From: a virus
Direction: 5' to 3' (one strand)
DNA: 30,939 bases
IMG/VR virus record: IMGVR_UViG_3300046718_000774
Span: 1 to 30,939 of that record
Part shown: positions 3,052 through 30,671 of the stretch, one piece after another
Layout: each line of letters starts with the position of its first letter
How positions within the stretch are numbered: the first letter of the stretch is position 1
The notes under the pieces: model-generated
The model's input: only the letters and a program-made list of their open reading frames with translations
Database searches by the model: none
Told to the model about the DNA's origin: nothing
Program-made: the position numbers and the translations under genes

Positions 3052-3052
3052 T

Positions 3053-4504: not shown

Positions 4505-4518
4505 CGTAACAAGTTACG
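4505..4518. repeat. 14-bp palindrome CGTAACAAGTTACG
   Basis: Perfect copy in the junction between two leftward genes. It supplies the TAA stop (4514-4516) of the upstream gene and sits 14 bases upstream of the GTG at 4490. Confidence 0.93.
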
Positions 4519-4735
4519 TTGAATATCTGACGGCCATCGCGGCGCAATGACACGACGCTCCGCATGGTGCTGATGAAACAATCCAGTACTTGTGTGTTGC
4601 CTGATCCGTGACAACAACTGAGACCCTGTGTTCTTTTGCTTGTTCCCATCGCAACGCGTCGGGGTCGTTCAGCTCGATGATGATGGCGTGCGGGTCTGTC
4701 CCTCGGGGACCGTCGTAGCAGTAGAGCTTCCTCAT
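4514..4735 (-). CDS. Hypothetical protein, 73 aa
   Basis: Begins MRKLYCYDGPRGTDPHAIII. The ATG at 4735 is preferred over an in-frame ATG 10 codons upstream because GGGAGA lies just before it, and the earlier ATG would fall inside a hairpin. Small alpha/beta-looking protein with RVSVVVTDQATHKYWIVS in the middle and cysteines near the C-terminus. The TAA stop is part of the 14-base palindrome. A half-palindrome (CGTTAC on the coding strand) lies just upstream of the ribosome-binding site. Function unknown. Confidence 0.68.
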   Translation of the reverse strand: MRKLYCYDGPRGTDPHAIIIELNDPDALRWEQAKEHRVSVVVTDQATHKYWIVSSAPCGASCHCAAMAVRYST

Positions 4736-4757
4736 GGTTTCTCCCGTAACGACCAAA

Positions 4758-4774
4758 GCCCGCATGATGCGGGC
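4758..4774 (-). terminator. Hairpin terminator-like structure
   Basis: Inverted repeat GCCCGCA-TGA-TGCGGGC with 7-bp GC-rich arms and a 3-base loop, followed on the minus strand by TTTGG. It lies 13 bases after the stop of the gene ending at 4788, between that gene and the next leftward gene. The T-tract is short, so termination may be partial. Confidence 0.5.
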
Positions 4775-4787
4775 CTGATCGTGGTTT

Positions 4788-5018
4788 TTAGCTGAAGCTG
4801 TCGAACAGCTGTGGCGGGTCGTCGTCCTCTTCAGCGACGGACGCGAAAATGTCCATCAGCTGACGTTCGCCCGAGATGTATGCGTCATGCAGTTCGAGCT
4901 CGTTGTGAAGGACGCGGTGCAACTGGTGCGAGAGAAGCTCTGACAAGAACTCGTTCCACACCTGTTCTTTGTCGATCTTGATGGGTGCTGTGAAAGCCAC
5001 CTGGGGGATGGTGGACAT
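4788..5018 (-). CDS. Hypothetical acidic helical protein, 76 aa
   Basis: Begins MSTIPQVAFTAPIKIDKEQV. The centre is an amphipathic helix with His/Leu/Glu repeats (LSELLSHQLHRVLHNELELH) and the C-terminus is acidic (EEDDDPPQLF). The ribosome-binding region CTAGAAAAGGAGA is the clearest example of a signature shared by many leftward genes here. No palindrome lies directly upstream; a strong hairpin (5057-5094) and a tRNA-like sequence do. Function unknown. Confidence 0.72.
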   Translation of the reverse strand: MSTIPQVAFTAPIKIDKEQVWNEFLSELLSHQLHRVLHNELELHDAYISGERQLMDIFASVAEEDDDPPQLFDSFS

Positions 5019-5056
5019 AACGTGAGTCTCCTTTTCTAGGTATCGACTGCTGAATA

Positions 5057-5094
5057 AGCCAGCCCGCGAGCTGCTTAGGCGGGGCGGGCTGGCT
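5057..5094 (-). terminator. 11-bp inverted repeat between tRNA-like sequence and gene
   Basis: Perfect arms AGCCAGCCCGC (5057-5067) and GCGGGCTGGCT (5084-5094) around a 16-base loop. It lies just 3' of the tRNA-like sequence on the minus strand and 38 bases before the next ATG. There is no U-tract, so it may be a processing signal or partial terminator. Confidence 0.45.
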
Positions 5095-5097
5095 AAA

Positions 5098-5163
5098 GCC
5101 TCGCCCGGAGTTGAACCGGGATCTCCCTCATTGGGCCGTTACTCTTCCGTTGAGCTACGAGGC
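5098..5163 (-). tRNA. tRNA-like sequence with aberrant anticodon arm
   Basis: Read on the minus strand, a 66-base element has an acceptor stem GCCTCG/CGAGGC, then TAGCTCAACGGAAGAG matching a tRNA D-arm, and a perfect T-arm (stem CCCGG/CCGGG with loop TTCAACT). The middle part, AACGGCCCAATGAGGGAGAT, does not fold into a 5-bp stem with a 7-base loop. The best helix is CCC/GGG around five bases, so no anticodon can be assigned. CCA is not encoded. It may be a degenerate phage tRNA, a tRNA-derived element with another role, or an unusual functional tRNA. It lies between genes in the leftward operon. Confidence 0.55.
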
Positions 5164-5170
5164 TTACCTT

Positions 5171-5353
5171 CTATGCGCGCCGAAGCGCCGCAAGCTGTTC
5201 GCGATCTTCGCGCAGCCGAGCCTGGATCTGCTCGATCGTTGCCTCATCCTCAACCAGGAACGCCTCTTCGAGCAGGAGGTTCCAGTTGCGAATGTGCTCG
5301 GTGATGAGCTCGATCAGCTCTTCATCCGACTGCTTGATAAGTGTCGTAGACAT
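5171..5353 (-). CDS. Small coiled-coil protein, 60 aa
   Basis: Begins MSTTLIKQSDEELIELITEH and continues as charged helix (EATIEQIQARLREDREQLAALRRA). Almost the whole length is predicted helix with heptad-like leucines, so it is probably a small coiled coil that pairs with itself or a partner. The 14-base palindrome at 5381-5394 is 27 bases upstream. Between them the signature appears in weak form (CTAAGAAAGCGAGA). It ends eight bases before the tRNA-like sequence. Function unknown. Confidence 0.7.
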   Translation of the reverse strand: MSTTLIKQSDEELIELITEHIRNWNLLLEEAFLVEDEATIEQIQARLREDREQLAALRRA

Positions 5354-5380
5354 TTCGTTCTCGCTTTCTTAGGAGTGAAG

Positions 5381-5394
5381 CGTAACAAGTTACG
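5381..5394. repeat. 14-bp palindrome CGTAACAAGTTACG
   Basis: Perfect copy. It supplies the TAA stop (5390-5392) of the upstream leftward gene and precedes the next gene's ATG by 27 bases. Confidence 0.93.
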
Positions 5395-5581
5395 GCAGCG
5401 GTGCGCAAATAGCGGGTGTCACCATCCATACTTCCCCGCTTACTGCTTTTGCGCTCATCCGTGCTGACATACACGTGCCGGGGTCATGCGGGTCTACCAT
5501 CGGCCAGCGTTTATGCTCGACAACGCCGTCCGGTAAACGCCTGATGACGATGTAGAAACAACCTGTGGTGCCGCCCCTCAC
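5390..5581 (-). CDS. Hypothetical protein, 63 aa
   Basis: Begins at GTG (MRGGTTGCFYIVIRRLPDG), overlapping the upstream TGA (GTGA), which fixes the start. A short strand-rich protein with a PMVDPHDPGTCMSARMSAKA segment. The TAA stop lies inside the 14-base palindrome. No family recognised; the coupled gene order is the main support for it being real. Confidence 0.62.
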   Translation of the reverse strand: MRGGTTGCFYIVIRRLPDGVVEHKRWPMVDPHDPGTCMSARMSAKAVSGEVWMVTPAICAPLP

Positions 5582-5790
5582 GCGGCATCGTTTTTCCCGC
5601 GCACACTCTTGATCTCCTTCGGCAGGAGCCAGTAGGTGTTGCCGTCGTCCGCGTCGAAACGCATCGTGCCGAAGTTGGCGGGCCCGCAGTACATCGCGTT
5701 TCGGAGCGTGAGTCCGCCGGCGCCCGTCACGTTGTCGGAGAGCTCGATGTCGTACTCACGGGCGAGTTTCAGATCAGCTGGTGTGATCAT
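5578..5790 (-). CDS. Hypothetical protein, 70 aa
   Basis: Begins MITPADLKLAREYDIELSDN. The ATG overlaps the preceding TGA (ATGA), which is why this start is chosen over an upstream in-frame ATG. The middle contains GGLTLRNAMYCGP and DDGNTYWLLPKEIKSV, looking like a compact beta-rich fold. No catalytic motif. It is coupled to both neighbours by 4-base overlaps, forming a three-gene set with the genes at 5787-6110 and 5390-5581. Confidence 0.7.
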   Translation of the reverse strand: MITPADLKLAREYDIELSDNVTGAGGLTLRNAMYCGPANFGTMRFDADDGNTYWLLPKEIKSVRGKNDAA

Positions 5791-6110
5791 GACTGGTCCA
5801 TGTCGTCGCTCAGTGTGGACACCTTCTCGCGCTGCTCGGGTGTCATGTTGCGCCATCGCTGTCCGGGTACCTGGTTGCGCACCTTGTTGGTGACGGCGGT
5901 TGCCTTGTCGAAGCTGAGGATCGCGACAGCTTCCTGCATCCAGTGGGAGATCTGCAGGAGAATCTCGGTTTTCTGCTCTCCGGTAAGGCGCTCGTCGTAG
6001 TCCGCTTCGATCTCGACGTGGAGGTAGGGCCCGCGTCCCTCGGACGGGTAGGGTTCCTTGCGTTCGCGGACGTATTCGTCGATGACTTTGGCTGCCTGAT
6101 GGGTGGCCAT
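5787..6110 (-). CDS. Hypothetical helical protein, 107 aa
   Basis: Begins MATHQAAKVIDEYVRERKEP. The start is fixed by AACCTAGAAGAAGGAGACCA directly upstream, with the palindrome at 6133-6146 before that. GPYLHVEIEADYDERLTGEQ suggests a strand and turn, followed by helices (KTEILLQISHWMQEAVAIL). No known motif. It is the first gene after the leftward promoter candidate at 6247-6276 and a strong leader hairpin (6145-6199), so its expression may be controlled by that leader. Function unknown. Confidence 0.75.
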   Translation of the reverse strand: MATHQAAKVIDEYVRERKEPYPSEGRGPYLHVEIEADYDERLTGEQKTEILLQISHWMQEAVAILSFDKATAVTNKVRNQVPGQRWRNMTPEQREKVSTLSDDMDQS

Positions 6111-6132
6111 TTGGTCTCCTTCTTCTAGGTTG

Positions 6133-6146
6133 CGTAACTGGTTACG
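6133..6146. repeat. 14-bp palindrome CGTAACTGGTTACG
   Basis: Perfect 6-base arms around TG. It lies 22 bases upstream of the ATG at 6110, and its right end overlaps the base of the large leader hairpin (6145-6199). Confidence 0.92.
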
Positions 6147-6199
6147 GCGAACGGCGGCGGGACCCGGACAAGGTTTCCCGCCGCCGTGCAGGTTCGCCG
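6145..6199 (-). promoter_or_regulatory. Long leader hairpin upstream of the 6110 gene
   Basis: CGGCGAAC (6145-6152) pairs with GTTCGCCG (6192-6199), and GGCGGCGGGA (6153-6162) pairs with TCCCGCCGCC (6176-6185). This makes an 18-bp stem with one 6-base bulge and a 13-base loop. It occupies most of the predicted 5' leader between the promoter at 6247-6276 and the palindrome at 6133-6146. It could be an attenuator, a stability element or a protein-binding site. Confidence 0.6.
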
Positions 6200-6246
6200 T
6201 TGGAAAGGGAGCTGCCCTCAATGCCCACGAGCTACTCCCTACTACA

Positions 6247-6276
6247 AGTATACCCCCTTCTGGGTAGGAATGGCTA
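6247..6276 (-). promoter_or_regulatory. Leftward promoter candidate TAGCCA-N18-TATACT
   Basis: On the minus strand a consensus-like -10 TATACT (6247-6252) lies 18 bases from TAGCCA (6271-6276). The surrounding 40 bases match the promoter candidate at 15267-15296 at 31 of 40 positions, including GTAGGA next to the -35 and CTAG inside it. It would transcribe the genes from 6110 leftward. Confidence 0.65.
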
Positions 6277-6281
6277 GGGCT

Positions 6282-6301
6282 CCCCTCGTGCGCGCGAGGG
6301 G
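6282..6301. repeat. 7-bp inverted repeat in divergent promoter region
   Basis: CCCCTCG (6282-6288) and CGAGGGG (6295-6301) around six bases. It lies between the leftward promoter and the rightward -10 element, so it may be an operator, or a terminator for transcription coming from the right (minus strand TTTTCCCC precedes it). Confidence 0.4.
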
Positions 6302-6310
6302 AAAATCCGA

Positions 6311-6316
6311 TATGCT
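6311..6316 (+). promoter_or_regulatory. Rightward -10 TATGCT for a probable leaderless gene
   Basis: TATGCT is followed by six bases and then the ATG at 6323. This places the expected transcription start at or next to the start codon. No Shine-Dalgarno sequence is present. No good -35 is visible. Confidence 0.45.
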
Positions 6317-6322
6317 TTGAGC

Positions 6323-6649
6323 ATGGGTTTACGGCTCAGCAACAGGCAGTTGAGGATCGTGACGGAGCTCGTGCTCACGGAGATTAAGCGTGAGCAGAAC
6401 ATCGAGCTGGACGAGCTTCTTGACAGGCTTGCGGAGATGGCGAAGCATCGTGGGTTGACGTACACGATGCAGTCGCAGAAGAAGGACCCGAACGATTTGC
6501 ACGGGCTCTCGTTGCTTGTTGCGAGAGAGCGCCCAGACCGGAAGGGTTCACCAACGCCGATTCATCCGAAGCGGATGGCGCGTAAGCCTGTGTTGGTTGA
6601 GCACCCACTGTTTCGCGACGAACAGGAGAGGGGTAAGAAGAGCGCATGA
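6323..6649 (+). CDS. Hypothetical basic protein of a rightward island, 108 aa
   Basis: Begins MGLRLSNRQLRIVTELVLTE. The N-terminal half is helical and charged (EIKREQNIELDELLDRLAEM), the C-terminal half basic and proline-containing (SPTPIHPKRMARKPVLVEHP). ATG 6323 is preferred over TTG 6317 because it sits at the expected transcription start after TATGCT. Transcription opposes the surrounding leftward genes. It could be a small DNA-binding or regulatory protein, but no fold is recognised. The stop overlaps the next start (ATGA). Confidence 0.7.
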   Translation: MGLRLSNRQLRIVTELVLTEIKREQNIELDELLDRLAEMAKHRGLTYTMQSQKKDPNDLHGLSLLVARERPDRKGSPTPIHPKRMARKPVLVEHPLFRDEQERGKKSA

Positions 6650-6768
6650 ATACTCTCGCGAACATCCTCGCTGGTGGTTTGCACATAAGCACGGGCACGT
6701 TGGAAGTGATCGCTCTCGTGATTTTCATCGTGATCGGTCTGTTCTGGTTGTTCGGTCGTCTTCGCTAG
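6646..6768 (+). CDS. Small membrane protein, 40 aa
   Basis: Begins MNTLANILAGGLHISTGTLE, followed by a hydrophobic segment (VIALVIFIVIGLFWLFG, about 21-37) and a basic end (RLR). The ATG overlaps the upstream TGA (ATGA), supporting translation. Positive residues after the helix suggest an N-out, C-in orientation. Function unknown; a holin-like or anti-host membrane peptide is possible but unsupported. Confidence 0.68.
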   Translation: MNTLANILAGGLHISTGTLEVIALVIFIVIGLFWLFGRLR

Positions 6769-6847
6769 CCCGATCCTTGACAACCTAGATTCGCTTAAGC
6801 GTGACGCGCTGTAAGCCCGCAGGACGCAGAACCCAACGTGGTGTTCG

Positions 6848-6862
6848 CGTAACGGGGTTGCG
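6848..6862. repeat. Degenerate palindrome copy CGTAACGGGGTTGCG
   Basis: Matches the 15-base form of the repeat (CGTAACGCGGTTACG) at all but two positions. It lies in the 120-base non-coding gap between the rightward small membrane gene and the leftward terminator at 6898. The gap also holds the palindrome CGCTTAAGCG (6791-6800). Confidence 0.5.
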
Positions 6863-6897
6863 GTGCGTCACGCGCCGCGCTGTGAGCTTCTGGGCAT

Positions 6898-6928
6898 AAA
6901 AAAAGACCCCGTGGTGAGCGGGGTCTTT
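6898..6928 (-). terminator. Strong intrinsic terminator
   Basis: A 10-bp stem AAAGACCCCG (6902-6911) / CGGGGTCTTT (6919-6928) with a 7-base loop is followed on the minus strand by seven T residues. It lies just after the stop of the gene ending at 6944 and would end that leftward transcript. It could also act weakly on rightward transcription from the 6323-6768 island. Confidence 0.88.
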
Positions 6929-6943
6929 GTCGGGTGTTGCAGT

Positions 6944-7231
6944 TCAGCGCCTGAGCCGGCTCAGGATGTCCTCTCTGCGTTCGCGTTTCATCTCGTTCTC
7001 GAACGCGAAGCGTGTCATGGGCTGCCAGCCGATCTGCGGGCTGGGGCTCAGGTACTCGAACTTCCACTCGTGGAGCGGATGGAAGTTGGCTTTCAGGTAG
7101 TCGCACAGCGCGTTGCAGCTGGTCGCGACTACCTGGGTCTCGTCTGCGGTGCGGATCACCATCACGTTGTCCCCTGGTGGTGCAAACCACGGGGTCATGA
7201 CGATGATCCGGTAGCGGCGTTCGCCGGTCAC
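6944..7231 (-). CDS. Hypothetical protein, 95 aa
   Basis: Begins at GTG (MTGERRYRIIVMTPWFAPPG). The start follows CTAGAAGGAGAAACACC, with the palindrome at 7253-7266 ahead of it. NVMVIRTADETQVVATSCNA and the aromatic stretch HEWKFEYLSPSPQIGW suggest an alpha/beta fold, with a basic helical C-terminus (FENEMKRERREDILSRLRR). No known motif. It is the last gene before the strong terminator at 6898-6928. Function unknown. Confidence 0.75.
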   Translation of the reverse strand: MTGERRYRIIVMTPWFAPPGDNVMVIRTADETQVVATSCNALCDYLKANFHPLHEWKFEYLSPSPQIGWQPMTRFAFENEMKRERREDILSRLRR

Positions 7232-7252
7232 GGTGTTTCTCCTTCTAGAACG

Positions 7253-7266
7253 CGTAACTCGTTACG
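7253..7266. repeat. 14-bp palindrome CGTAACTCGTTACG (extended arms)
   Basis: The symmetry extends to 9-bp arms, ACGCGTAAC/GTTACGCGT (7250-7269). It supplies the TAA stop (7262-7264) of the SprT-like gene and lies 21 bases upstream of the GTG at 7231. Confidence 0.93.
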
Positions 7267-7696
7267 CGTGGTTGTCGTGGATGTGGAGCATCTTCTTGCA
7301 GTACGGGCAGAGCGGGAAGCGGTAGGTGAGCTTGTGACGCTTCCAGGTGCGCTTACAGGTGCGGCAGGTGAGCAGGTAACGCTTGTCACCTGAGCGCACG
7401 GCGCCTTCGGCGCAGGTTGTGCCGGTGCAGCCGAGTTTGAGCGCGATCCGGTACCAGTGGTCGTCGTGACCGTGGTTTGGTCCGGCGATCGCGTGTGACA
7501 CCTCGTGGAGCAGCGTGTTCGCGATGACTTTCACGGGGCTGTCGAGGAAATGGTGGGAGACGGTGATCTGCTTCCGCTTGTGGAAGCACCGTCCGACGGT
7601 GGTGAGTGTGTCGTCCCACTCGAACGTCCAGCCTGTGAGCCCGTGCTGCACGATGAGGTTCTCGGCCGCTTGCCGGACTGATGCCGGTTCTATCAC
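7262..7696 (-). CDS. SprT-like zinc metalloprotease domain protein
   Basis: 144 residues, a complete minimal SprT-like protein. HEVSH at 64-68 inside TLLHEVSHAIAGPNHGHDDH gives the HExxH zinc site with further histidines at 75-80 as the likely third ligand. The C-terminus carries a zinc ribbon, C111-x2-C114 (CRTCKR) and C130-x2-C133 (CPYCKK). ITVSHHFLDSP and WYRIALKLGC are also typical. SprT/Spartan relatives cleave DNA-bound proteins; in phages the role is unproven. GTG start after CTAGAAAAGGAGA, with the 15-base palindrome variant at 7724-7738 upstream. The stop is inside another palindrome. A host-protein or protein-DNA crosslink target is inferred. Confidence 0.9.
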   Translation of the reverse strand: MIEPASVRQAAENLIVQHGLTGWTFEWDDTLTTVGRCFHKRKQITVSHHFLDSPVKVIANTLLHEVSHAIAGPNHGHDDHWYRIALKLGCTGTTCAEGAVRSGDKRYLLTCRTCKRTWKRHKLTYRFPLCPYCKKMLHIHDNHA

Positions 7697-7723
7697 GGCT
7701 GATCTCCTTTTCTAGTGGTGGAG

Positions 7724-7738
7724 CGTAACGCGGTTACG
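7724..7738. repeat. 15-bp palindrome variant CGTAACGCGGTTACG
   Basis: Same perfect arms CGTAAC/GTTACG but a 3-base spacer (GCG) instead of two. It lies 27 bases upstream of the SprT-like gene's GTG and just downstream of a hairpin. The changed spacing is informative about what reads the repeat. Confidence 0.88.
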
Positions 7739-7747
7739 GCGACGGGT

Positions 7748-7775
7748 TAGCCCGCGCAGCATGCTGCGCGGGCTA
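7748..7775. terminator. 28-base perfect palindrome between leftward genes
   Basis: TAGCCCGCGCAGCA followed by its exact complement, TGCTGCGCGGGCTA. It sits five bases after the stop of the gene ending at 7781 and ten bases before the palindrome variant at 7724-7738. It forms a very stable GC-rich hairpin but has no T-tract, so a 3'-end stabiliser or partial terminator is likely. Confidence 0.6.
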
Positions 7776-7780
7776 GGTGG

Positions 7781-7996
7781 TTAGGTGACGGGGAGTGGTT
7801 CTTTCGGGGCGAGGAAGTTCTCCTCGGCGAATGGTTTCCCGTCCAAACCGTAGGCGAGAGCATCGACGGTGACGTCGTCGTCTCCGTAGCAGTGCGCGGA
7901 GATGAGTTCGGCGATTTTCCGCCCGCCGATGTAGATCTCGACGGTGAGGGTTTCGCTGGTCTCGTCGTTGGTCGCCTTGATGCGTGCTTGCAGCAT
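7781..7996 (-). CDS. Hypothetical protein, 71 aa
   Basis: Begins MLQARIKATNDETSETLTVE. A small, acidic, beta-rich sequence (LTVEIYIGGRKIAELISAHC, then DDDVTVDALAYGLDGKPFAE) ending PKEPLPVT. The ATG follows GGAGGTCTAACCCC, with a degenerate palindrome (8011-8025) ahead of it. A 28-base hairpin follows the stop. Function unknown. Confidence 0.72.
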   Translation of the reverse strand: MLQARIKATNDETSETLTVEIYIGGRKIAELISAHCYGDDDVTVDALAYGLDGKPFAEENFLAPKEPLPVT

Positions 7997-8010
7997 CGGG
8001 GTTAGACCTC

Positions 8011-8025
8011 CGTTTCGGCGTTACG
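8011..8025. repeat. Degenerate palindrome variant (minus strand CGTAACGCCGAAACG)
   Basis: The left arm CGTAAC is intact, but the right arm is GAAACG instead of GTTACG. Almost the same 15 bases recur at 9157-9171 and 10036-10050, so this is a second class of site rather than random decay. It lies 14 bases upstream of the ATG at 7996. Confidence 0.6.
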
Positions 8026-8092
8026 GTGTCGTCTGGTGACGAGTTGCGTAGCTAGCGCGGGCCGCGACCCTGGGTTGGAGCGGCCGGGCTGG

Positions 8093-9121
8093 TTAGGCGG
8101 CGACCTTCTCCGTGGTCTTGACCTTGGGCTCGACCTCGTCCTTGAGGACGGCCATGATGTCGGGCACCGCGACGATCGCGTCGAGCTGCTCGCGCTGCTC
8201 GGGCGTGATCTTCGAGTCGAGGTGCGCCTGGTACAGCTCGAGGGTCTTGATGATCGCGGCGTTGAGCACGCGGATCTCCTCGCGGCCCTCGATCTCGCCG
8301 CCGACGGACAGGACCTGCCGAACTCCGGCCTTGACTGCCGCTTCGATGGACTGCTCGATGACGAGCGGGTTGAAGCGGACGATGCCTTCGGCGACGGTGG
8401 TCTGGAACTGGGTCGCCGTGACCTTCTTCGACTTGGTGTCCTTGTCGTTGCCGCCCTTCTTCGGACCGCCGAACTTCTCGGGCACATCGAGGCCGGACTG
8501 CTTGTAGAGCTCCGCGATGGGCGCCTTGAGGAACTGAGGCACGGTCTTCAGGTAGAACAGGTCGGGGAAGTCGGGGTCGGGGTCGGACCACTTCAGGAAA
8601 CCGGGCTTCTGCAGGGACTGGAGGTCGTCTGCGTGAAGCTTGTAGTTCCCGATGTTGTCCATGACGTATGCGGTGGCGAAGCATTCCCGCATCCCGCCGA
8701 CGCCCTTCCGACCGCCCCACCAGAGGCGGACGGCGGTGAGGCTGTTGCTGCGCATCTTGCGTGCCTCTGCCTTCTCCGCGTCCGACACGTTCTCGCCGGA
8801 CGGGATGGGGAAGTAGGTGTCGTAGAGCGCGGCGCTGACCCGCTTGACGTACTCCGATGCCTTGCCGGTCTCCATCGACATGACGGGGTATCCGGCAGCG
8901 TTGACGACGTTCATCGCCAACTTGAGCAGGTGGTACGCGACCGTCTTGTTCTCCTTGCCAGCCTTCTTCAGCGTGGCAGAGAGGGACTTGAAGGTCTTGG
9001 AGAGGATGCCGATCTCCTCGGCAGCCGCCTCCAGGTTCAGCACCTGGGTTCCGTCGTCGATCTCGGACGTGTCGATGCCGAGAGCTTCGAACGGGTCCAC
9101 TACGGTGGTTGAAGCGTTCAT
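8093..9121 (-). CDS. Hypothetical protein, 342 aa, largest of the leftward block
   Basis: Begins MNASTTVVDPFEALGIDTSE. Mostly helical, with an acidic N-terminus, a central Trp/Gly stretch (TAVRLWWGGRKGVGGMRECF, about 128-147), DPDPDFPDLFYLKTVPQFLK (about 180-200), a low-complexity linker rich in Lys/Gly (GGPKKGGNDKDTKSKK, about 218-233), and a helical C-terminal domain. No catalytic motif, transmembrane segment or zinc site is visible. It has its own promoter candidate (9276-9305) and a 155-base leader, suggesting strong or separately timed expression. The linker implies two domains. Not recognised as any family; a DNA-binding or host-takeover protein is possible. Confidence 0.8.
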   Translation of the reverse strand: MNASTTVVDPFEALGIDTSEIDDGTQVLNLEAAAEEIGILSKTFKSLSATLKKAGKENKTVAYHLLKLAMNVVNAAGYPVMSMETGKASEYVKRVSAALYDTYFPIPSGENVSDAEKAEARKMRSNSLTAVRLWWGGRKGVGGMRECFATAYVMDNIGNYKLHADDLQSLQKPGFLKWSDPDPDFPDLFYLKTVPQFLKAPIAELYKQSGLDVPEKFGGPKKGGNDKDTKSKKVTATQFQTTVAEGIVRFNPLVIEQSIEAAVKAGVRQVLSVGGEIEGREEIRVLNAAIIKTLELYQAHLDSKITPEQREQLDAIVAVPDIMAVLKDEVEPKVKTTEKVAA

Positions 9122-9156
9122 GGGTTCTCCGTTTCTCTGACCTCTACCGTGTCGGG

Positions 9157-9171
9157 CGTTTCGCCGTTACG
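9157..9171. repeat. Degenerate palindrome variant (minus strand CGTAACGGCGAAACG)
   Basis: Second member of the GAAACG class, 35 bases upstream of the ATG at 9121. The flanking CGTTACGGTGTCG (plus strand) is shared with the copy at 8011-8025. Confidence 0.6.
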
Positions 9172-9275
9172 GTGTCGGGATCTGATTGGTGGAAAACCCA
9201 GGGACGCGGTACCCACGCTAGGTACGCAACCCATCACCAGATGGGACTAGGTTGTTCTCGTCTAGTCATAAGTAC

Positions 9276-9305
9276 ATTGTCGCACTCGTGACGTAGGAGA
9301 GTCAA
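9276..9305 (-). promoter_or_regulatory. Leftward promoter candidate TTGACT-N18-GACAAT
   Basis: The minus strand carries TTGACT (9300-9305), an 18-base spacer and GACAAT (9276-9281). CTCCTAC follows the -35 directly, as in the candidate at 15267-15296 and nearly as at 6247-6276. It lies in the 236-base gap before the 342-residue protein gene. Otherwise I see no gene in 9122-9357. Confidence 0.6.
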
Positions 9306-9357
9306 ACCCGTTCCCGGTTCGAGGCTACTCCCTGAGCCAGCAGCGCAGGTAGCAGGG

Positions 9358-9621
9358 TTAGGTGGATGGGGTGTAGCCGAGCCGGTGCACGAGTACCCGC
9401 ATGTTGCAGGTGATGCGGCGGATCTGGTGGTCGATCTCAGGGCTGGACTCGATGACCTGGAGCTCGTTGAGATGCCAGTAGAGCTCGCGGTAGTTCGCTT
9501 CCATCCGTTCCCGTCGCAGGCGTGGAGCGTTAGCACGTTCCCATTCCTGGCGGCGGTAGAGATCGAGGGCTCGGTCGGCGCTGGTCACCGCGTCACGTAG
9601 ATGACGTTCGACGTTGTCCAT
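9358..9621 (-). CDS. Hypothetical helical protein, 87 aa
   Basis: Begins MDNVERHLRDAVTSADRALD (an in-frame GTG lies one codon upstream). Strongly charged and helical, with WERANAPRLRRERMEANYRE and LQVIESSPEIDHQIRRIT segments that could form a helical hairpin. The start overlaps the stop of the upstream small membrane gene (TGATG), so the two are probably coupled. No palindrome precedes this pair. Function unknown. Confidence 0.7.
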   Translation of the reverse strand: MDNVERHLRDAVTSADRALDLYRRQEWERANAPRLRRERMEANYRELYWHLNELQVIESSPEIDHQIRRITCNMRVLVHRLGYTPST

Positions 9622-9755
9622 CACCGCTCGGTGTACGACCGGATCAGCTTGATACGTGCTGCGCGCTTCTGTGCTCTCGCGACCCAGTAGACCGGGACGA
9701 AGCCAAGCACGAGGGCGGACACGATCGTTATGAGCGCGATCAGGGATGCAGACAT
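9621..9755 (-). CDS. Small membrane protein, 44 aa
   Basis: Begins MSASLIALITIVSALVLGFV, one transmembrane helix (about 4-25), then a basic C-terminal tail (RAQKRAARIKLIRSYTER) expected to stay in the cytoplasm. AAGGAG lies 6 bases before the ATG. The stop overlaps the next gene's ATG. Function unknown. Confidence 0.72.
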   Translation of the reverse strand: MSASLIALITIVSALVLGFVPVYWVARAQKRAARIKLIRSYTER

Positions 9756-9780
9756 GGTGTCTCCTTCCCGCGCTGCTCGA

Positions 9781-9933
9781 TCAGGAAGTAGCCTCAGGTA
9801 CTGCGCTTCGGCCAGCGGTCAGCCGCCACACCTGCGTCACGTCCTTCTCGCTCAACGATCTGCCGTGGACTCCGGCCGGTAGCCAGGTCAGCTTGTGAGA
9901 GATCGGAGAGAGGGTGTGCGTATGGTGCGCCAT
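9781..9933 (-). CDS. Possible small protein, 50 aa (uncertain)
   Basis: An open frame starting MAHHTHTLSPISHKLTWLPA and ending SAVPEATS. There is no clear ribosome-binding site. A second overlapping frame in the same region (ATG at about 9967, 58 codons, starting MLTESRADSCHRDG) is equally open, so neither is secure. It lies upstream of the 44-residue membrane gene. Its end overlaps one arm of a 15-base inverted repeat. Listed because the 400-base gap otherwise holds no gene. Confidence 0.25.
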   Translation of the reverse strand: MAHHTHTLSPISHKLTWLPAGVHGRSLSEKDVTQVWRLTAGRSAVPEATS

Positions 9934-10020
9934 CCCGGTGGCAACTATCAGCCCGGGATTCAGTCAACATGACCGGGTAGCCAATGAGGGCAGCCGACCG
10001 CTTGACGAAGCGCAGTACCT
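9796..10020. repeat. 15-base inverted repeat pair enclosing about 195 bases
   Basis: AGGTACTGCGCTTCG at 9796-9810 and its exact complement CGAAGCGCAGTACCT at 10006-10020. The arms could pair to close a large RNA or DNA structure. No transposase or integrase is nearby. The rest of 9756-10160 holds only the weak small frame above and a degenerate palindrome at 10036-10050. Confidence 0.6.
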
Positions 10021-10035
10021 AGCCTTATGCCCAAG

Positions 10036-10050
10036 CGTTTCGCCGTTACG
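10036..10050. repeat. Degenerate palindrome variant (minus strand CGTAACGGCGAAACG)
   Basis: Third member of the GAAACG class, identical over 15 bases to the copy at 9157-9171. No confident start codon follows it closely. Confidence 0.55.
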
Positions 10051-10357
10051 CACCTAGCTGGAGTCATGGACGCCGCTACTCAGGGTCCTCGGAGCGCACG
10101 ATAGGCAACCGCGCAAGGGTTCGGCATATAACCCCTCAGAGAAGGGCCGTAGGTAGACTCTTGCTATCCCTCGCAGGATGGCCGTCTACTGTCCGTTCGG
10201 CGCACGACCTGCCCGAGCCGTTGTCGAGGCTGCGGAGCCTATCGCCGATTGTGATGCGACCCGATCCGGGCTATAGCTCGCGCCCGCCCGGGCCACCCAC
10301 GCAACCCCTATGGAAACCGTTGCGCCTACACAGAATGCCTGCCGTCACCCCGTTACG

Positions 10358-10400
10358 CCCCCCCCAAAGGTCTAGGTATTCCCCCCCCAAAGGTCTAGGT
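10358..10400. repeat. Direct repeat: C-tract plus AAAGGTCTAGGT, twice
   Basis: Eight C residues followed by AAAGGTCTAGGT occur at 10358-10377 and again at 10381-10400, a 23-base period. They lie in the 10160-10590 stretch, which is C-rich and in which I find no credible gene. GCGCCTAC also recurs there (10322, 10511, 10561). Confidence 0.75.
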
Positions 10401-10599
10401 CACCGCGCGACTACCCAACCCCCGTTCCCGCGCCCGGCACCCTGCCACCCGATGCCCCGTGCGTGCCCGCGTGAGCCACGCTGAGCCGCCTCCACCCCGG
10501 ATCCGACCCCGCGCCTACCCACGGATTACGCGCCAAGGTGGCCCCGTGCTCGCGCGACTCGCGCCTACTATTTTTGCGTCCCCCTGGAAATGTTCTCGT

Positions 10600-11969: not shown

Positions 11970-12682
11970 TCATCTCCCTCCGGTCGATCGAAAATCTCGT
12001 TGATGCTCCGGTCGTGAACCGCCGGAACCCCGTACGTGGCACTGAGCGCCTCAGCGAGCCCCGGGGTCGCGCACCGCAAAGACTTCGGGTACGCGAACTG
12101 CGCTCTGTAACCGAGCTTCGTTTCCAGGACGCGTCCCCACAACGACACCTCGCCCCACGCCTCCGGCCCATAGTGCCCGGCTCCCGCGGAAACATCACCC
12201 TCGTTCTTCAACGCCCACACCCCGCACGCGCACGACCGGAACGGTGCCTCATGACGCGAGGTCGTGCAGAGCGCCTCGAAACGACGGAACGGCGGGTAGA
12301 AGAACGGCATCCGGTGGCCCGGAGCGACCGGGATCAGCACCGTCGTCTCCACGCCGTGCCTCGACAAAAACGAGCCGGTGTGCCACGCCCTCCACCCAAC
12401 CACCACCTCCGTCTGGAACACCAACGGGAGCTCCGGCAACGGAGCGGTCGTCATCTCGAGAGACGCCTTAACGATCGAGGCCGCGCCACCGCCCTGCCCA
12501 CCACCACCACCACCACCACCCCCCCCGCTCAATATCCAATACCCGCCCTGCCAGGACCAGGGCTGGCTCGGGATTTTCATCGCCATGAACTTCTTCCTGT
12601 ACTCCTCCAGCTGCCGAGCGCGCTGCTCCAACGCTTTCCGCCGCTCCTCCTCCTGATGTTTCCTAGACCCCCACTGGCTCAC
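11966..12682 (-). CDS. GFRAW/CGxWA-family hypothetical protein with polyglycine linker
   Basis: 238 residues starting at GTG 12682 (VSQWGSRKHQEEERRKALEQ), preceded by GGAGG. Order: a coiled-coil-like charged N-terminus (1-35), an aromatic patch and a run of about 14 glycines with one glutamine (53-66), then the conserved domain with VVVGWRAW, CACGVWALKN, WGEVSLWGRVLETKLGYRAQ and FAYPKSL. The same motifs occur in the gene at 12921-13538, so the two are paralogues. The LWGRV..GYRA..A(Y/R)P pattern is common in actinobacterial and phage hypothetical proteins of unknown function. The start overlaps the nested 40-residue gene. The polyglycine tract is encoded by CCA/C-tract DNA prone to slippage. 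Confidence 0.76.
   Translation of the reverse strand: MSQWGSRKHQEEERRKALEQRARQLEEYRKKFMAMKIPSQPWSWQGGYWILSGGGGGGGGGGQGGGAASIVKASLEMTTAPLPELPLVFQTEVVVGWRAWHTGSFLSRHGVETTVLIPVAPGHRMPFFYPPFRRFEALCTTSRHEAPFRSCACGVWALKNEGDVSAGAGHYGPEAWGEVSLWGRVLETKLGYRAQFAYPKSLRCATPGLAEALSATYGVPAVHDRSINEIFDRPEGDE
12498..12527. repeat. (CCA)7 tract followed by C-run
   Basis: Seven CCA units (12498-12518) run into a stretch of C. On the coding strand this gives the polyglycine run of the 238-residue protein. Such a tract can change length by slippage. Confidence 0.85.
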
Positions 12683-25467: not shown

Positions 25468-25644
25468 ATGCCTGCAAGCCCAAGAGTGGTGACACTAGGA
25501 GACATGGTCTACGCGCTCGACGCTCAGCCCGGAGACATGCTCGTCCTCAACGAGGATTTGATTCCGGAATGGGTGAGTCTCGATGAGCTAGCCGACCGAA
25601 TCGCCGAGGCGTTGGCGAAGAGACCCGCGAGTGCCCGCACGTAG
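25468..25644 (+). CDS. Small acidic protein between portal and protease, 58 aa
   Basis: Begins MPASPRVVTLGDMVYALDAQ, then PGDMLVLNEDLIPEWVSLDE and LADRIAEALAKRPASART. GGAGG lies seven bases before the ATG, with the palindrome directly upstream. Its 3' end overlaps the protease start by 14 bases. The position suggests a head-assembly accessory, but no fold is recognised. Confidence 0.7.
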   Translation: MPASPRVVTLGDMVYALDAQPGDMLVLNEDLIPEWVSLDELADRIAEALAKRPASART

Positions 25645-28042
25645 TCAAGCTCAGCGCGCCTTTCTGAACGCCCGTTTCGGGCATGACTGGGTTAAGGAGC
25701 ACCACTTCGACAACGAGGGGAAGCTGCCAGAGCACGTCGAGAAGGAGATCCCCGGGTGGGCGAACTTGCGCGAAGCGGAGTTTAGTGACGTGTCGTGCGG
25801 AACATGTGACTGGTTCCACCATGGTGTTTGCACGATGTTTGACGACACTCCCGTGGGTGCTGATGACACGTGCGACGCCTGGGAGGGAATAGTCACGAAG
25901 GAGGATCCGGCAATCGCGCCGATGTACACCGCGCCGGCACCGGCCCCGCCCGACACACCCGAGGGGCTGAGGGATCTTCTCGGAGCCTTGGAACCGGACC
26001 CGGAGGGGTTCATTTGGAAGGCTGGCGTAACGGCCGCTGGTATGGCTGTTCGTGCTGCGGACACAGGCAGAGTCCTGATGATTCAGCGCGCGAGCAACAA
26101 CGCGAAGGACCCGGCGGCTGGTTGCTGGGAGTTTCCCGGTGGGTGCCTGAACGATGGCGAACATCCCTATGTGGGCGCGAAGCGCGAGTGGCAGGAGGAA
26201 ATGGGCGTCCGCCTGCCGCGAGGACGGCACGTGGGGCAATGGCAGTCAGGCATCTACCAGGGTTTCGTGCACGAGGTCCCTTCCGAGGCGAATGTGAAGA
26301 TCAACGGCGAGCGCAAGGTGATGAACCCCGACGATCCTGACGGTGACGGGGTTGAGGTTGCCGCCTGGTGGGACCCGGATCACATGAAGCGCTCCCGTGC
26401 TGTGCGTTGGGAGCTCCATGATTCACGCGCCTGGGACAAGGTGCAGAAAGCGAACGGTTCCCTGTACATGGTCTCGCACGCGAAAACGCGGTACAACCGC
26501 CCGGGGCAGCCACATGATGTGGTGCAAGGGTGGAGAGATATTCCGCTCGACAACACCGGCAAGGTGCAGGCGAAGAAGCTCGGCAAGTTCTTCAAGGACG
26601 CTGGGGTGGAGGAGATCTACGCGTCCGATTTGAAGCGCGCGAAGCAGACAGCGGACATAGCTGCGCGTGAGTGCGGTGCCTCCGTGAAAGCTGATCGCAG
26701 CTACCGGCCGTGGAATCTTGGTTCGTTCGCCGGGCATTCGTCCGCTGACGTGATCCCGAAGCTGACGCCGTACATGACCACGAAAGCCGATGAGCCCGTT
26801 GATGGTGGTGAGTCCTTCAACGAGTACAAGGGCAGGTTCGTGCCGGCGTTGGAGAAACTACTCAAGCAGGCCGATGGCGGGAAAACGATCGCGCTCGTCA
26901 CTCACTCGCGCAACGTCGAGCTCGCCCAAGGATGGATCGGCGGGAAGGGCCCGCGTTCGAAGATCGACACGTCTGCGATCGAGGCTGACAAGATCGATCC
27001 GGCGACGGTGTTCAAGATCGACGCCGGCAAGAAGATGAGCGTGAAGGAGGTCGTCACGAAAGGACAGGCGCACGCCGCCATACTGCATTTGCGCGTGAAC
27101 GGTGTGTTGCGCCACCCAGACGGAGGGAACGTGTACCGGATGGTCACCCGTGACGGTCACTACGTGGGTCGCACGAACAGCAGCAGGATGAAAGCGAAGA
27201 AGGGCGACATCCTGAAAGTCCAGGCTGCTGATTTCGCGCAGGACGCTGACGGCGATTACCGCTGGCTGAACCCGAACGTCGCGGGTGCTTACACTGACGC
27301 AGCTCATTCGTGGAAAGAGTTGGAGGCCCTTGCCGGCGGACGCCTCGTCAAGGACTTTGCTCCTGGTGCTGGTGCTCCGCCGGCGGGCGACTCACCGATG
27401 GGCTCCTCGGAGATGCCGTCAGCGGGGACTCTCGCCGCGATGACACCCGCTGCTACGAGCGAAGTTCCGGTTGGCAGCATGGGACCAACGCTGCAGTCGG
27501 TGCATCGCAACAAGCCGTTGAAGGACCTGTCTGTCGCGTATATGAACGCGAACGTGAAGCTCCGTGTTCATAAAGCTGACGGGTACAAGCAGCTCGTCTA
27601 CGGGGTTGTGCTCGAACCGAACGCTCTCGACAGTCAGGACGATTTCATGCTTCCCGACCAGGTGGAGAAAGCCGCACACGGTTATCTGAAGAAGGTTGCT
27701 CGCGGGAAAGCAACGGTGACGAAGCTGCAGCATCAGGCGAAGAGTTTCTTCCGCGACAAGCCCGGGGTGGTTCCGGTGGAGTCCTATATCGCACCGGTGG
27801 ATTTCACCCTGGACGGGAAAGAGATGGTGAAGAAAGGGACGTGGGTGATGTGCGTCCACGTTGAGGACCATGACGTGTGGCAGGACGTTCTTGCCGGCAA
27901 GTACACGGGGTTCTCGATCGGTGGCTCGGGTATCCGTCGGTCTATGCACGTACCACCGGACGTTCTTGAGCGCAGCTTTATCGCGAACCCTCAGGCGTCC
28001 GACTGGTTTACGAGCGGCGGTAACGTCGCTTCAAACGAATAA
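25631..28042 (+). CDS. Multidomain prohead protease: Cys motif, NUDIX, histidine phosphatase-like, XkdF-like
   Basis: 803 residues from GTG 25631. In order: a basic N-terminus; C56-x2-C59...C67...C81 (SCGTCDWFHHGVC, CDAWE), a small metal or Fe-S-like motif; a NUDIX domain (about 130-260) with a perfect box from G171 to V193 (E177, R185-E186, E189-E190, G192). Next is a histidine-phosphatase-like domain (about 275-440) with VSHAKT (H283), ASDLKRAKQT (R336) and VTHSRN (H425). Here the usual first arginine of RHG is serine, so catalysis is doubtful. A linker (about 475-575, GRTNSSRMKAKKGDILKV) resembles an OB fold loosely. Last is an XkdF-type protease domain (about 635-770; likely H701 and S762 of TGFSIGG). 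The position after the portal supports a capsid-maturation protease. Confidence 0.85.
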   Translation: MPARSQAQRAFLNARFGHDWVKEHHFDNEGKLPEHVEKEIPGWANLREAEFSDVSCGTCDWFHHGVCTMFDDTPVGADDTCDAWEGIVTKEDPAIAPMYTAPAPAPPDTPEGLRDLLGALEPDPEGFIWKAGVTAAGMAVRAADTGRVLMIQRASNNAKDPAAGCWEFPGGCLNDGEHPYVGAKREWQEEMGVRLPRGRHVGQWQSGIYQGFVHEVPSEANVKINGERKVMNPDDPDGDGVEVAAWWDPDHMKRSRAVRWELHDSRAWDKVQKANGSLYMVSHAKTRYNRPGQPHDVVQGWRDIPLDNTGKVQAKKLGKFFKDAGVEEIYASDLKRAKQTADIAARECGASVKADRSYRPWNLGSFAGHSSADVIPKLTPYMTTKADEPVDGGESFNEYKGRFVPALEKLLKQADGGKTIALVTHSRNVELAQGWIGGKGPRSKIDTSAIEADKIDPATVFKIDAGKKMSVKEVVTKGQAHAAILHLRVNGVLRHPDGGNVYRMVTRDGHYVGRTNSSRMKAKKGDILKVQAADFAQDADGDYRWLNPNVAGAYTDAAHSWKELEALAGGRLVKDFAPGAGAPPAGDSPMGSSEMPSAGTLAAMTPAATSEVPVGSMGPTLQSVHRNKPLKDLSVAYMNANVKLRVHKADGYKQLVYGVVLEPNALDSQDDFMLPDQVEKAAHGYLKKVARGKATVTKLQHQAKSFFRDKPGVVPVESYIAPVDFTLDGKEMVKKGTWVMCVHVEDHDVWQDVLAGKYTGFSIGGSGIRRSMHVPPDVLERSFIANPQASDWFTSGGNVASNE

Positions 28043-28074: not shown

Positions 28075-29247
28075 GTGAGGATCTCGAATCTAACGGATGT
28101 TGACGGGGACGAGGTATCCCTCGTGAGGCGTGCCGCTAACCGGCGGCGTTTTCTGCTGCTGAAAGGGGACCAAGACGTGGACTCAGAGCTGTCTGACATT
28201 CTCGATGTCCCCTGGGAGCGCGAAGGCGCGATGCTGGACGAGCTCCGTAAGGACGGCGTCGTTGACGAGACCGTAGAGAAAGCTTTCGTCACCGCTGTCC
28301 GTCTTCTCAAGGGAATCGAGGGTGAGTTTTCGCCGGAGCTGATCGAGAAGCTCGGGCGTGAGATGTACCCCGTTCAGAACAACCCACTTAACTCGACGAA
28401 GGTTGCGAGCCCAGGAGAGCTGTCTGGTAGTGCGAGCGGGGACGAGTCACTGAGTGCTTCCGCCACTGATGGCGAGTTGTCTGGTGGCGCGAGCGGGAGT
28501 TCCTTGGAGGGTCGCGGTAGCGGAGCGAAAGTTGCCGCTGACTCTGACGGTGACACCGAGGAGCCTGACGACGACGAGGACGACAAGAAGAAGAGACCTT
28601 GGATGTCCCGCAAGAAGAAGGCTGTTAGCAAGTCCGATGATCACGACGACGACGAAGGAGGCACGGTGGAGTTCCGAGTGCCAGTTCAGAAAGAGGACGG
28701 GACATGGGACTACTCCGATGTCCCCGAGGAGAGCCATTCGTTTTTCAAGACGATGATCGAGAAGGCTGAGAAGGCCGATCAGATCGAGAAGAGTCTTGGT
28801 GAGACGCGTGAGCAGCTTCTCAAGTCTCAGGATGAGCTCCGGCAGCGCGATTACATCGCGAAGGCGGAGAAGTTGGACACGCTCGCCCCCGCTGACAAGC
28901 TCGGGCTAGTGCTCAAGAATGCTGCGGAGACGATGGACGCTGATCGTTTCGCTGAGTTGGAGCAGGTTCTCACTTCTGCTCAGGCTCGCGTCCAGACCGG
29001 GGATCTGTTCAAGGAGCTCGGGGCTCGCGCGCTGGAGGATGAGACTTCGATGGTCGCGAAGAGCGACCCGTGGTCTCAGATCGAGGCGCTCGCCAAGACC
29101 CTTGTCGAGAAGTCCGGTGAGCTCACGGAGGAGCAGGCGATCGCTCGGGTGCTGAAGACAGCGGAGGGCAAGGAGCTGTACACCCGCTACGAGCGTGACT
29201 ACCTGGCTTCCGCCGCGGCGATGACGGGTTTCGGGGGGGCGAGCTAA
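28075..29247 (+). CDS. Scaffold/capsid-assembly-like protein, 390 aa
   Basis: GTG 28075 after GAAGG: MRISNLTDVDGDEVSLVRRA then ANRRRFLLLKG, an N-terminal segment (about 8-30) often found in phage head proteins encoded next to XkdF-type proteases. The middle (about 100-190) is low-complexity Ser/Gly then acidic and Lys-rich (DDDEDDKKKRPWMSRKKKAV), and about 215-270 is a coiled coil (KTMIEKAEKADQIEKSLGET). The acidic linker plus coiled coil and position just before decoration and capsid genes fit an internal scaffold removed during maturation. No direct proof of cleavage sites. Confidence 0.7.
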   Translation: MRISNLTDVDGDEVSLVRRAANRRRFLLLKGDQDVDSELSDILDVPWEREGAMLDELRKDGVVDETVEKAFVTAVRLLKGIEGEFSPELIEKLGREMYPVQNNPLNSTKVASPGELSGSASGDESLSASATDGELSGGASGSSLEGRGSGAKVAADSDGDTEEPDDDEDDKKKRPWMSRKKKAVSKSDDHDDDEGGTVEFRVPVQKEDGTWDYSDVPEESHSFFKTMIEKAEKADQIEKSLGETREQLLKSQDELRQRDYIAKAEKLDTLAPADKLGLVLKNAAETMDADRFAELEQVLTSAQARVQTGDLFKELGARALEDETSMVAKSDPWSQIEALAKTLVEKSGELTEEQAIARVLKTAEGKELYTRYERDYLASAAAMTGFGGAS

Positions 29248-29664
29248 ATGGCAGTCGAAACCAATGTCGGCCTCGACACCACGTTCCTCGCGAACACGGA
29301 TCTGTCGAGCAACCAGTTCTACTTCGTTCGGGTGACTTCGTCCGGGTTCCTGGCCACTGCCGGCAGCGGCGTGACGGGTCCCCGCGCGGTAGGCGTTCTG
29401 CAGGACACTCCGAACGGTACGGCTGCCACTCCTGTCCGGTCTCAGGTCCGGTACGGAGGCATCAGCAAGGTCATCGCCGGCGGTTCGTTCGCGATCGGTG
29501 ATCCGATTTCCTCGAACAGCACCGGCCAGGCCGTGAAGTACACGGTTGCCGCGAACTCAACCGGGTTCGGCACCGGCAGCCAGGTTCTCGGTTTCGCCAT
29601 TCTCGCGGGCGTAACCGGCGACACTTCCTCAATCATCTTCAGCCCGTCCGGGCTGTCTACATAG
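29248..29664 (+). CDS. Head decoration-like protein, 138 aa
   Basis: Begins MAVETNVGLDTTFLANTDLS, directly after the scaffold stop. Glycine/threonine/serine-rich, beta-strand pattern (NQFYFVRVTSSGFLATAGSG, GPRAVGVLQDTPNG, VRYGGISKVIAGGSFAIGDP). This resembles DUF2190-type capsid decoration/stabilisation proteins, which are small beta-rich trimers on the shell. It sits just before the capsid gene, the usual place. Separation from a minor capsid role is not possible from sequence. Confidence 0.72.
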   Translation: MAVETNVGLDTTFLANTDLSSNQFYFVRVTSSGFLATAGSGVTGPRAVGVLQDTPNGTAATPVRSQVRYGGISKVIAGGSFAIGDPISSNSTGQAVKYTVAANSTGFGTGSQVLGFAILAGVTGDTSSIIFSPSGLST

Positions 29665-29684: not shown

Positions 29685-30671
29685 ATGCCTCAGCCAACTC
29701 TTACCCAAGTCCATGTAAACCGGCCGCTGACGAACATCAGCACCGCGTACATGCAGGACTCGAACGACTACATCGCTGACAAGATCGCCCCTGTTGTGCC
29801 CGTGCAGAAGCAGTCGGATCTGTACTTCCGGTACACGAAGGGCGACTGGTTCCGCGATGAGGCGGCGCAGCGCGCGCCTGGTACTGAGTCTGTTGGTTCC
29901 GGTTACAACGTGACCACGGACAGCTACCAGTGCCCGGTGTACGCACTGCACAAGATGGTGGACCCGCAGATCCGTGCGAACACGGACGACCCGCTGAACG
30001 CGGACCGTGACGCAACCCTGTGGATCACGCACCGTCTGCTGCTTTCCCGCGAGATCCAGGTCGTGACCGCCGTCATGGCGACCTCGACGTGGACTGGCTC
30101 CACAACGGGCGGAGACATCGTTCCGTCCCCGCTGTGGTCTGCGGCGAACGGAACACCGCTGGAGGACATCGAGGCTCAGATCTGGGCGATCAAGAAGACG
30201 ACCGGGCGTTTCCCGAACCGGCTCGTGCTTGGCGCGAAGGTCTGGCAGGTCCTGAAGAACCTCGATGAGCTCGTTCAGCGCATCAAGTACACCCAGCGTG
30301 GTGTGGTCACGACGGAGCTGCTCGCTTCTCTGATCGCCCCTCCGGGTGTGAACGACTTCCAGGTGATCGTCGCTGCGGCGATCGAGAACACCGCCCTTGA
30401 GGGTGCGACGGACAGCTTCGCGTTCATCGCTCCTGAGAAGGACGCTCTGCTTCTGTACGCGGAGCCGCAGCCGGGGATCATGGTTCCGTCGTCCGTGTAC
30501 ATCTTCACGTGGACTGCGCTTCTGGGCGCCGGCGCGTTCGGTTCCCGGATCAGCCAGATCCCGATGCCGTGGATGGGGATCGGTACTGTCCGGATCGAGG
30601 GTGAGCTCGCGTTCACCACGAAGATCGTCGGTACGGATCTCGGTGCTTACTTCCACGGAGCGGTTGCGTAG
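29685..30671 (+). CDS. Major capsid protein (probable)
   Basis: 328 residues, ATG 29685 after AAAGGGGGATGACG. Reads as an HK97-type shell protein: N-arm (QPTLTQVHVNRPLTNISTAY), an E-loop-like strand pair (KQSDLYFRYTKGDWFRDEAA), a spine-helix stretch (RDATLWITHRLLLSREIQVV, about 107-126), IEAQIWAIKKTTGRFPNRLV and A-domain strands (FQVIVAAAIENTALEGATDS, KDALLLYAEPQPGIMVPSSV), ending IVGTDLGAYFHGAVA. No pro-domain is visible, consistent with a separate scaffold. Gene order portal-protease-scaffold-decoration-capsid supports the call. Confidence 0.85.
   Translation: MPQPTLTQVHVNRPLTNISTAYMQDSNDYIADKIAPVVPVQKQSDLYFRYTKGDWFRDEAAQRAPGTESVGSGYNVTTDSYQCPVYALHKMVDPQIRANTDDPLNADRDATLWITHRLLLSREIQVVTAVMATSTWTGSTTGGDIVPSPLWSAANGTPLEDIEAQIWAIKKTTGRFPNRLVLGAKVWQVLKNLDELVQRIKYTQRGVVTTELLASLIAPPGVNDFQVIVAAAIENTALEGATDSFAFIAPEKDALLLYAEPQPGIMVPSSVYIFTWTALLGAGAFGSRISQIPMPWMGIGTVRIEGELAFTTKIVGTDLGAYFHGAVA

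Follow-up and report, generated by a model that had tools for sequence, protein, structure and literature searches.

The window that we analysed (30,939 nucleotides, the whole of IMG/VR record IMGVR_UViG_3300046718_000774, from a soil phage) encodes a prohead protease of the XkdF type to which a four-cysteine (Cys4) segment, a NUDIX domain and a domain of the histidine-phosphatase (HP) superfamily are fused at the N-terminal side. In our opinion it is rather probable that these additions are exchangeable passengers, which the protease brings into the capsid as head cargo and which are injected, and that the NUDIX domain hydrolyses a host nucleotide. Of the readings considered, that of enzymes produced at capsid level as cargo has the best support from the observations described below; the localisation, release and injection of the passengers, their substrate and an anti-defence role are what we infer.

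The frame (25631-28042, plus strand) starts at a GTG and reads through 803 codons. It is real and maintained, as identical copies elsewhere and diverged contigs of the same layout show. Of the identical copies, L002 comes from a different IMG/VR dataset and agrees with the window letter for letter over 7445 bp that include the whole 803-codon gene; L003, from a third dataset, is identical over 3558 bp, which cover the gene's last 219 codons only. The same full layout recurs in two diverged contigs, in 781 aa in L010 (77% identity) and in 837 aa in L011 (54% identity), and dN/dS over the whole fusion gene is 0.14 (window against L010). The first-pass annotation, which had recognised the Cys4, NUDIX, HP-like and XkdF-type protease parts, had named an assembly artefact and a NUDIX region without fold support as findings that would speak against it. 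The identical copies in other assemblies and the diverged homologues of the same layout rule out the artefact, and the NUDIX core has a pLDDT of mostly 77-91 in the predicted model. All four domain calls were right: the Pfam matches for NUDIX, His_Phos_1 and Peptidase_S78_2 all lie above the curated cut-offs and far above chance, and the Cys4 motif is present. An extra conserved piece, 'mid' (about residues 476-570), was missing from that list. Among the IMG/VR relatives the full layout occurs in three contigs apart from identical copies, and in one variant without NUDIX.

Table 1. Features of the fusion gene and its neighbours in the window
Feature	Position	Strand	Basis
Portal protein gene, directly upstream of the fusion gene	24022..25449	+	Portal_Mu E 8.6e-27; phrog_113 2e-69
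Fused prohead protease, 803 aa	25631..28042	+	GTG start, stop included; open frame and copies/relatives
N-terminal extension, residues 1-37, AQRAFL motif	25631..25741	+	Missing in L010 (alignment A2)
Cys4 segment, residues 38-90 (C56, C59, C67, C81)	25742..25900	+	HiPIP-like spacing; cysteines invariant in alignment A2
NUDIX domain, residues 131-270	26021..26440	+	PF00293 E 1.6e-14; pLDDT mostly 77-91 over core; dN/dS 0.038 vs L010
NUDIX box, residues 171-193, GCLNDGEHPYVGAKREWQEEMGV	26141..26209	+	Pattern match
Tyr209, 16 residues past the NUDIX box	26255..26257	+	Position of the diadenosine-polyphosphatase tyrosine
Histidine-phosphatase-superfamily domain, residues 275-475	26453..27055	+	PF00300 E 5.9e-30; fold match 4ij6_B
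Ser-His-Ala (282-284) replacing superfamily Arg-His-Gly	26474..26482	+	Alignment of phage relatives
'Mid' region, residues 476-570	27056..27340	+	Protease core (by sequence); kept in bare proteases L257, L259 (mid-S78_2)
Pro/Ala/Ser/Gly-rich linker, residues 571-640	27341..27550	+	Low pLDDT; low conservation in alignment A2
Peptidase_S78_2 (XkdF) domain, residues 641-775	27551..27955	+	PF14550 E 6e-29; H701, S762 conserved
Acidic scaffold-like gene, after the protease	28075..29247	+	Position and sequence; phrog_17741 weakly
Small head protein (PHROG 'head scaffolding', possibly decoration)	29248..29664	+	phrog_673 E 2.8e-14
Major capsid protein	29685..30671	+	phrog_1005 E 1.6e-70

The C-terminal part resembles XkdF of PBSX (PF14550) both in the S78_2 domain (E 6e-29; the Pfam match at residues 645-766 has 101 bits against a cut-off of 24) and in the order portal, protease, major capsid protein (MCP), and the fusion gene thus sits where an XkdF prohead protease is expected. 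H701 and S762 are invariant in five family members (alignment A4), and by S78-type proteases in general we take them to be the likely catalytic pair. The mid region, with predicted strands and a pLDDT of about 58-76, is judged from its sequence to belong to the protease core, and the linker is a possible cleavage region. The full-length predicted model is poor across the protease part, and a joint alignment of HP and S78_2 fragments (A5) was left out because the fragments were misplaced. Unlike the window's fusion, the typical S78_2 members that we found either lack passengers (about 120-400 aa) or have other partners. The size of 200-400 residues which the first-pass annotation gave as usual for this class agrees with the same-family protease of the sister phages, which has 343-394 aa without passengers.

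The gene order glycosyltransferases, portal, fusion gene, scaffold-like gene, small head protein and MCP is conserved. The glycosyltransferase block, between terminase and portal (19517-24009), consists of a GT6-like gene (20409-21062), two genes of GT2 type and one weakly GT1-like, together with a weak methyltransferase-like gene; it is partly conserved in L089 and L012, which suggests glycosylation of the virion or of the host surface. Elsewhere the window has a gene of the SPFH/Band 7 family (2125-3105, minus strand, E 1.1e-25), a family that to our knowledge is uncommon among phages, and a predicted tRNA-Lys (TTT; 12310-12406, minus strand), which is long (97 bases) and overlaps longer open frames.

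The Pfam NUDIX match spans residues 135-255 (E 1.6e-14), and the box (GX5EX7REUXEEXGU), called perfect in the first-pass annotation, is complete, with Trp at the first hydrophobic 'U' position. In 105 phage NUDIX copies the box residues are essentially invariant, and R185, E186, E189 and E190 are kept in 100%. The NUDIX part is under the strongest purifying selection within the fusion protein, with a dN/dS of 0.038 (window against L010) compared to 0.123 for S78_2 and 0.226 for HP. Judging from its sequence, it is probably active. PADLOC returned a single match, PDC-S07, on this part.

The HP call stands on profile and fold. His_Phos_1 (PF00300, branch 1) matches residues 278-431 (E 5.9e-30, 104.8 bits), and the predicted model (mf9276e80fb21) superimposes on 4ij6_B with Z 22.6 and rmsd 2.4 over 193 aligned residues. 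It does not stand on the motif, however: the RHG catalytic motif of branch 1 is absent from the window protein, where SHA is found at 282-284, and RPWN stands where the usual acid motif would be. SHA is shared by L010, L011 and L261, while the other aligned phage relatives have RHG; the His is kept. Because RHG has become SHA, histidine phosphatase activity cannot be assumed, and the domain may be inactive. The loss of R and G from HP in the window's lineage would agree with the notion that the passengers are non-catalytic binding modules, which alter head or portal structure and have no enzymatic role. Nevertheless, we consider this highly improbable, since it is difficult to see why the four NUDIX residues named above should be completely conserved in 105 diverse copies, on unrelated backbones, if not for catalysis.

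Relatives of the HP domain are found in phage contigs in frames of 200-866 aa, and a search of GenBank phages returned only general histidine phosphatases, which were about 30% identical and came for the most part from records without annotation. In L156 (2882-5937) HP lies between the N- and C-terminal parts of portal family phrog_12082: the C-terminal part of the HP frame matches the C-terminal part of the portal, and the N-terminal part of the portal is the gene just upstream, as if HP had been inserted into the portal and had split it into two genes. In L158 the HP frame has the gene for a head-tail connector (PHROG head-tail adaptor) on one side and the major capsid gene on the other.

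The cysteine motif reads C56-x2-C59-x7-C67-x13-C81, a spacing similar to that of HiPIP. The HiPIP profile gives no match in the window protein; there are weak matches in relatives, namely L011 (PF01355, E 0.006) and L158 (E 0.0017; NF041615, E 2e-9), where HiPIP-type models match a Cys4 segment at the end of the HP frame. The segment also precedes NUDIX in the portal fusions L016, L039 and L048. With tblastn against GenBank phages it returned nothing even at E 10, and Pfam has no match to the N-terminal segment alone or to the mid segment alone.

Regarding the NUDIX substrate, a tyrosine motif has been described for diadenosine-polyphosphate NUDIX enzymes (PMC5389931, PMC6856373), and the ADP-ribose pyrophosphatase subfamily has a Pro about 16 residues past the box (PMC6856373). 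The window protein has no Pro at +15 to +17, and +16 is Tyr209; a Tyr at +16 to +19 is frequent in the subfamily (75 of the 88 phage copies that match the strict box pattern), and one residue is weak evidence. The best fold match to NUDIX plus HP as a whole is MutT1 (5xd5_A, Z 15.6, 253 aligned, rmsd 17.3), the high rmsd being probably due to a differing domain placement, and one PDB entry of MutT1/Rv2985 calls it a diadenosine polyphosphatase in the title. The Tyr and the fold match, neither of them strong, favour dinucleoside polyphosphates as the substrate, which is uncertain.

Mycobacterial MutT1 (Rv2985; PDB 5gg5 and related) has, like the window protein, a NUDIX followed by a histidine phosphatase in one chain. 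It differs in that the window's RHG reads SHA and its domains are fused to a protease, and in that the domains of the window's relatives are separable and their order is reversible. Descent from bacterial MutT1 was considered and rejected: sequence gives it no support, and the nearest kin found for each domain are phage proteins. It could be argued that the protein is a house-cleaning, MutT1-like NUDIX-phosphatase, which rids the infected cell of oxidised nucleotides or dinucleoside polyphosphates, and that the fusion to a late protease serves co-expression only. MutT1 being the best match among whole NUDIX-plus-HP structures would fit, and so would the +16 Tyr, as in ApnA hydrolases. We find such a role unlikely, however: the window scores 32.2 bits with the equivalog model for MutT1 (8-oxo-(d)GTP phosphatase, NF052459), far under the cut-off of 475; NUDIX and HP are also found separately, and in both orders, and so do not form a fixed pair; late expression is a poor fit to sanitation; and it would leave unexplained why the fusion is specifically to head proteins.

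This last point concerns the whole NUDIX subfamily. A four-sequence NUDIX alignment retrieved 175 relatives in one IMG/VR scan, the best 80 of which we examined. In these best 80 of 175, together with a second scan and a scan of bacterial genomes, all complete frames (113 of 113) are at least 414 aa long. The usual carriers are portal, portal-MuF or prohead-protease proteins: a recognised portal, MuF, S78, S78_2 or Pam4-protease-like part is in the same ORF in 54 of 65 clustered copies (Pam4 row excluded), and in 4 further copies a head-protein part is in another ORF of the locus, one of these (L086) being itself a portal. Because loci were chosen by NUDIX or whole-protein patterns and without regard to fusion, this rate is not built into the sample. 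The carrier types comprise portal-NUDIX-MuF (Sonali type), a divergent portal with NUDIX (some with Cys4), S78-NUDIX (Gilgamesh type), the Pam4 type and the S78_2 type of the window. Arthrobacter phage Sonali and Streptomyces phage Gilgamesh have the same NUDIX subfamily (44-48% identity) on carriers that differ from the window's, and neither has an HP or Cys4 match. The scan of bacterial genomes gave close matches in only six contigs, all of them actinobacterial, and in each one the NUDIX is part of either a portal or an S78 protein. On a tree the phage NUDIX group separates as a clade from bacterial MutT (SH-aLRT 98); the tree needs about 17 carrier changes, with most forks poorly supported, so that the number of independent fusions is uncertain.

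Some of the remaining large NUDIX frames contain head-protein parts as well; that of L094, for instance (1986-10439, open-ended, at least 2818 aa) has a head maturation protease match and ParB-like parts beside the same NUDIX, and by its composition we regard it as a polyvalent protein. In-frame inserts in portals, of about 270 aa (L282 6950-9382, about residues 290-570) and 400 aa (L069 3-4214), look like inteins by their ends and motifs.

The window's own lineage was recovered by a portal scan and placed on the portal tree. There the window and L256 have a sister clade (support 95) in which the protease is a bare mid-S78_2 protein of 343-394 aa, and the portals of these sister phages are 72% identical to the window's. 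A 59-kb record of a bare-protease phage has neither NUDIX nor HP elsewhere, with the limit that bare-protease records may be fragments. Nearby, L262 and L282 have NUDIX-mid-S78_2 and L263 has NUDIX-S78_2; L261 has Cys4-x-HP-mid-S78_2 without NUDIX, and L267 has HP-NUDIX-S78_2, in reversed order. In the more distant L277, L291 and L293 a 2H phosphoesterase fills the slot before S78_2. Going by these arrangements, NUDIX, HP and the Cys4 segment behave as swappable cassettes, and since the sister phages have the bare protease, capsid assembly in the window's lineage very likely does not need the passengers. L261 (2557-5121) and L012 (3985-5565) share another N-terminal segment (FWEQYPNLRDGCVNKYGYDP... 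and FWAEHPDMRQECTANYGHDP..., respectively), apparently a further exchangeable cassette, which in L261 occupies the place of the window's NUDIX. L293 (9818-12937) has a 1040-aa frame with HP (its RHG end missing), Cys4, 2H phosphoesterase and S78_2, to be read from its domains as several phospho-hydrolase cassettes on one protease.

A prohead protease is normally removed by self-cleavage on maturation. Fusion to such a protease would therefore fit passengers that act transiently in head assembly, NUDIX and HP clearing nucleotides or pyrophosphate in or near the prohead, or acting on capsid or DNA, before being degraded on maturation; the strong conservation of NUDIX would also be in line with this. 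However, sister phages with 72% identical portals make do with the bare protease, and the same NUDIX is also found on portals, which remain in the mature virion. We think a role in assembly improbable.

We thus prefer head cargo. Proteases of this kind are built into the prohead, and the crown end of the portal faces the capsid interior. Because an S78-type protease is built into the prohead, the N-terminal passengers (Cys4, NUDIX, HP-like) are expected inside the capsid, which the NUDIX subfamily would reach in other phages via portal or MuF proteins. Selection for head cargo best accounts for one NUDIX being found on several carriers that all lead into one compartment, although portal-NUDIX fusions could act through the assembled portal and not as injected cargo. 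The passengers would most likely stay in the virion during and after maturation, perhaps freed by cutting in the Pro/Ala-rich linker (571-640), and would enter the host along with the phage DNA. There NUDIX would hydrolyse an NDP-X nucleotide, most plausibly a stress or defence nucleotide of the host (a dinucleoside polyphosphate or an ADP-ribose derivative), and the HP-like domain would trim the product, as in MutT1-type enzymes, or, given the change from RHG to SHA, merely bind it. It may be proposed further that the slot before S78_2 is a cargo port for exchangeable NUDIX, HP and 2H phosphoesterase enzymes, with a Cys4 tag that may be of iron-sulphur type, and that what is injected destroys alarm or defence nucleotides of the host as infection begins, in two steps as in MutT1; this we put forward only tentatively, as rather doubtful.

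The novelty of the fusion as such is limited. Iyer et al. 2022 (PMC9503650), as far as the sections cited here go, report NUDIX fused to MuF, to portal and to a capsid-processing serine peptidase, and propose head packaging and injection for these fusions; the window shares with them a NUDIX joined to a head-maturation serine protease (in their case also to portal) and the prediction that it is packaged and injected. They assign most phage NUDIX domains to NudE- or NadM-like clades; in contrast, the window's NUDIX lacks the ADP-ribose Pro at its expected place and a +16 Tyr is typical, a contrast which concerns motif residues only. In the same sections we found no mention of an HP or Cys4 partner. 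Polyvalent effectors, and also fusions of 2H domains to MuF and portal, are described, in the part of that work used here, by Iyer et al. 2017 (PMC5512222). Polyvalent proteins have, like the window's, many effector domains and a processing peptidase in one virion-associated polypeptide; their hubs are MPTase, ArdC, ART and MuF, whereas the window's protein is centred on the S78_2 prohead protease itself. Literature on NUDIX with prohead or capsid maturation protease, portal or MuF gave only these two papers and an unrelated phage genome paper. Hence the four-part layout, which the first-pass annotation called unusual, is so only in part: NUDIX-head fusions are common and published, and what is rare are the HP and Cys4 additions. 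These additions and the cassette exchange before S78_2 are, as far as we found in the parts of the literature cited, undescribed, the principle of the NUDIX-head protein fusion being already known.

If the cargo reading is true, the published NUDIX-head fusions would be extended to a two-enzyme module resembling MutT1. The sister phages with and without cassettes would be matched pairs for testing NUDIX and phosphatase cargo in infection, and from the slot before the prohead protease one could read off which enzymes are carried in with the phage DNA.
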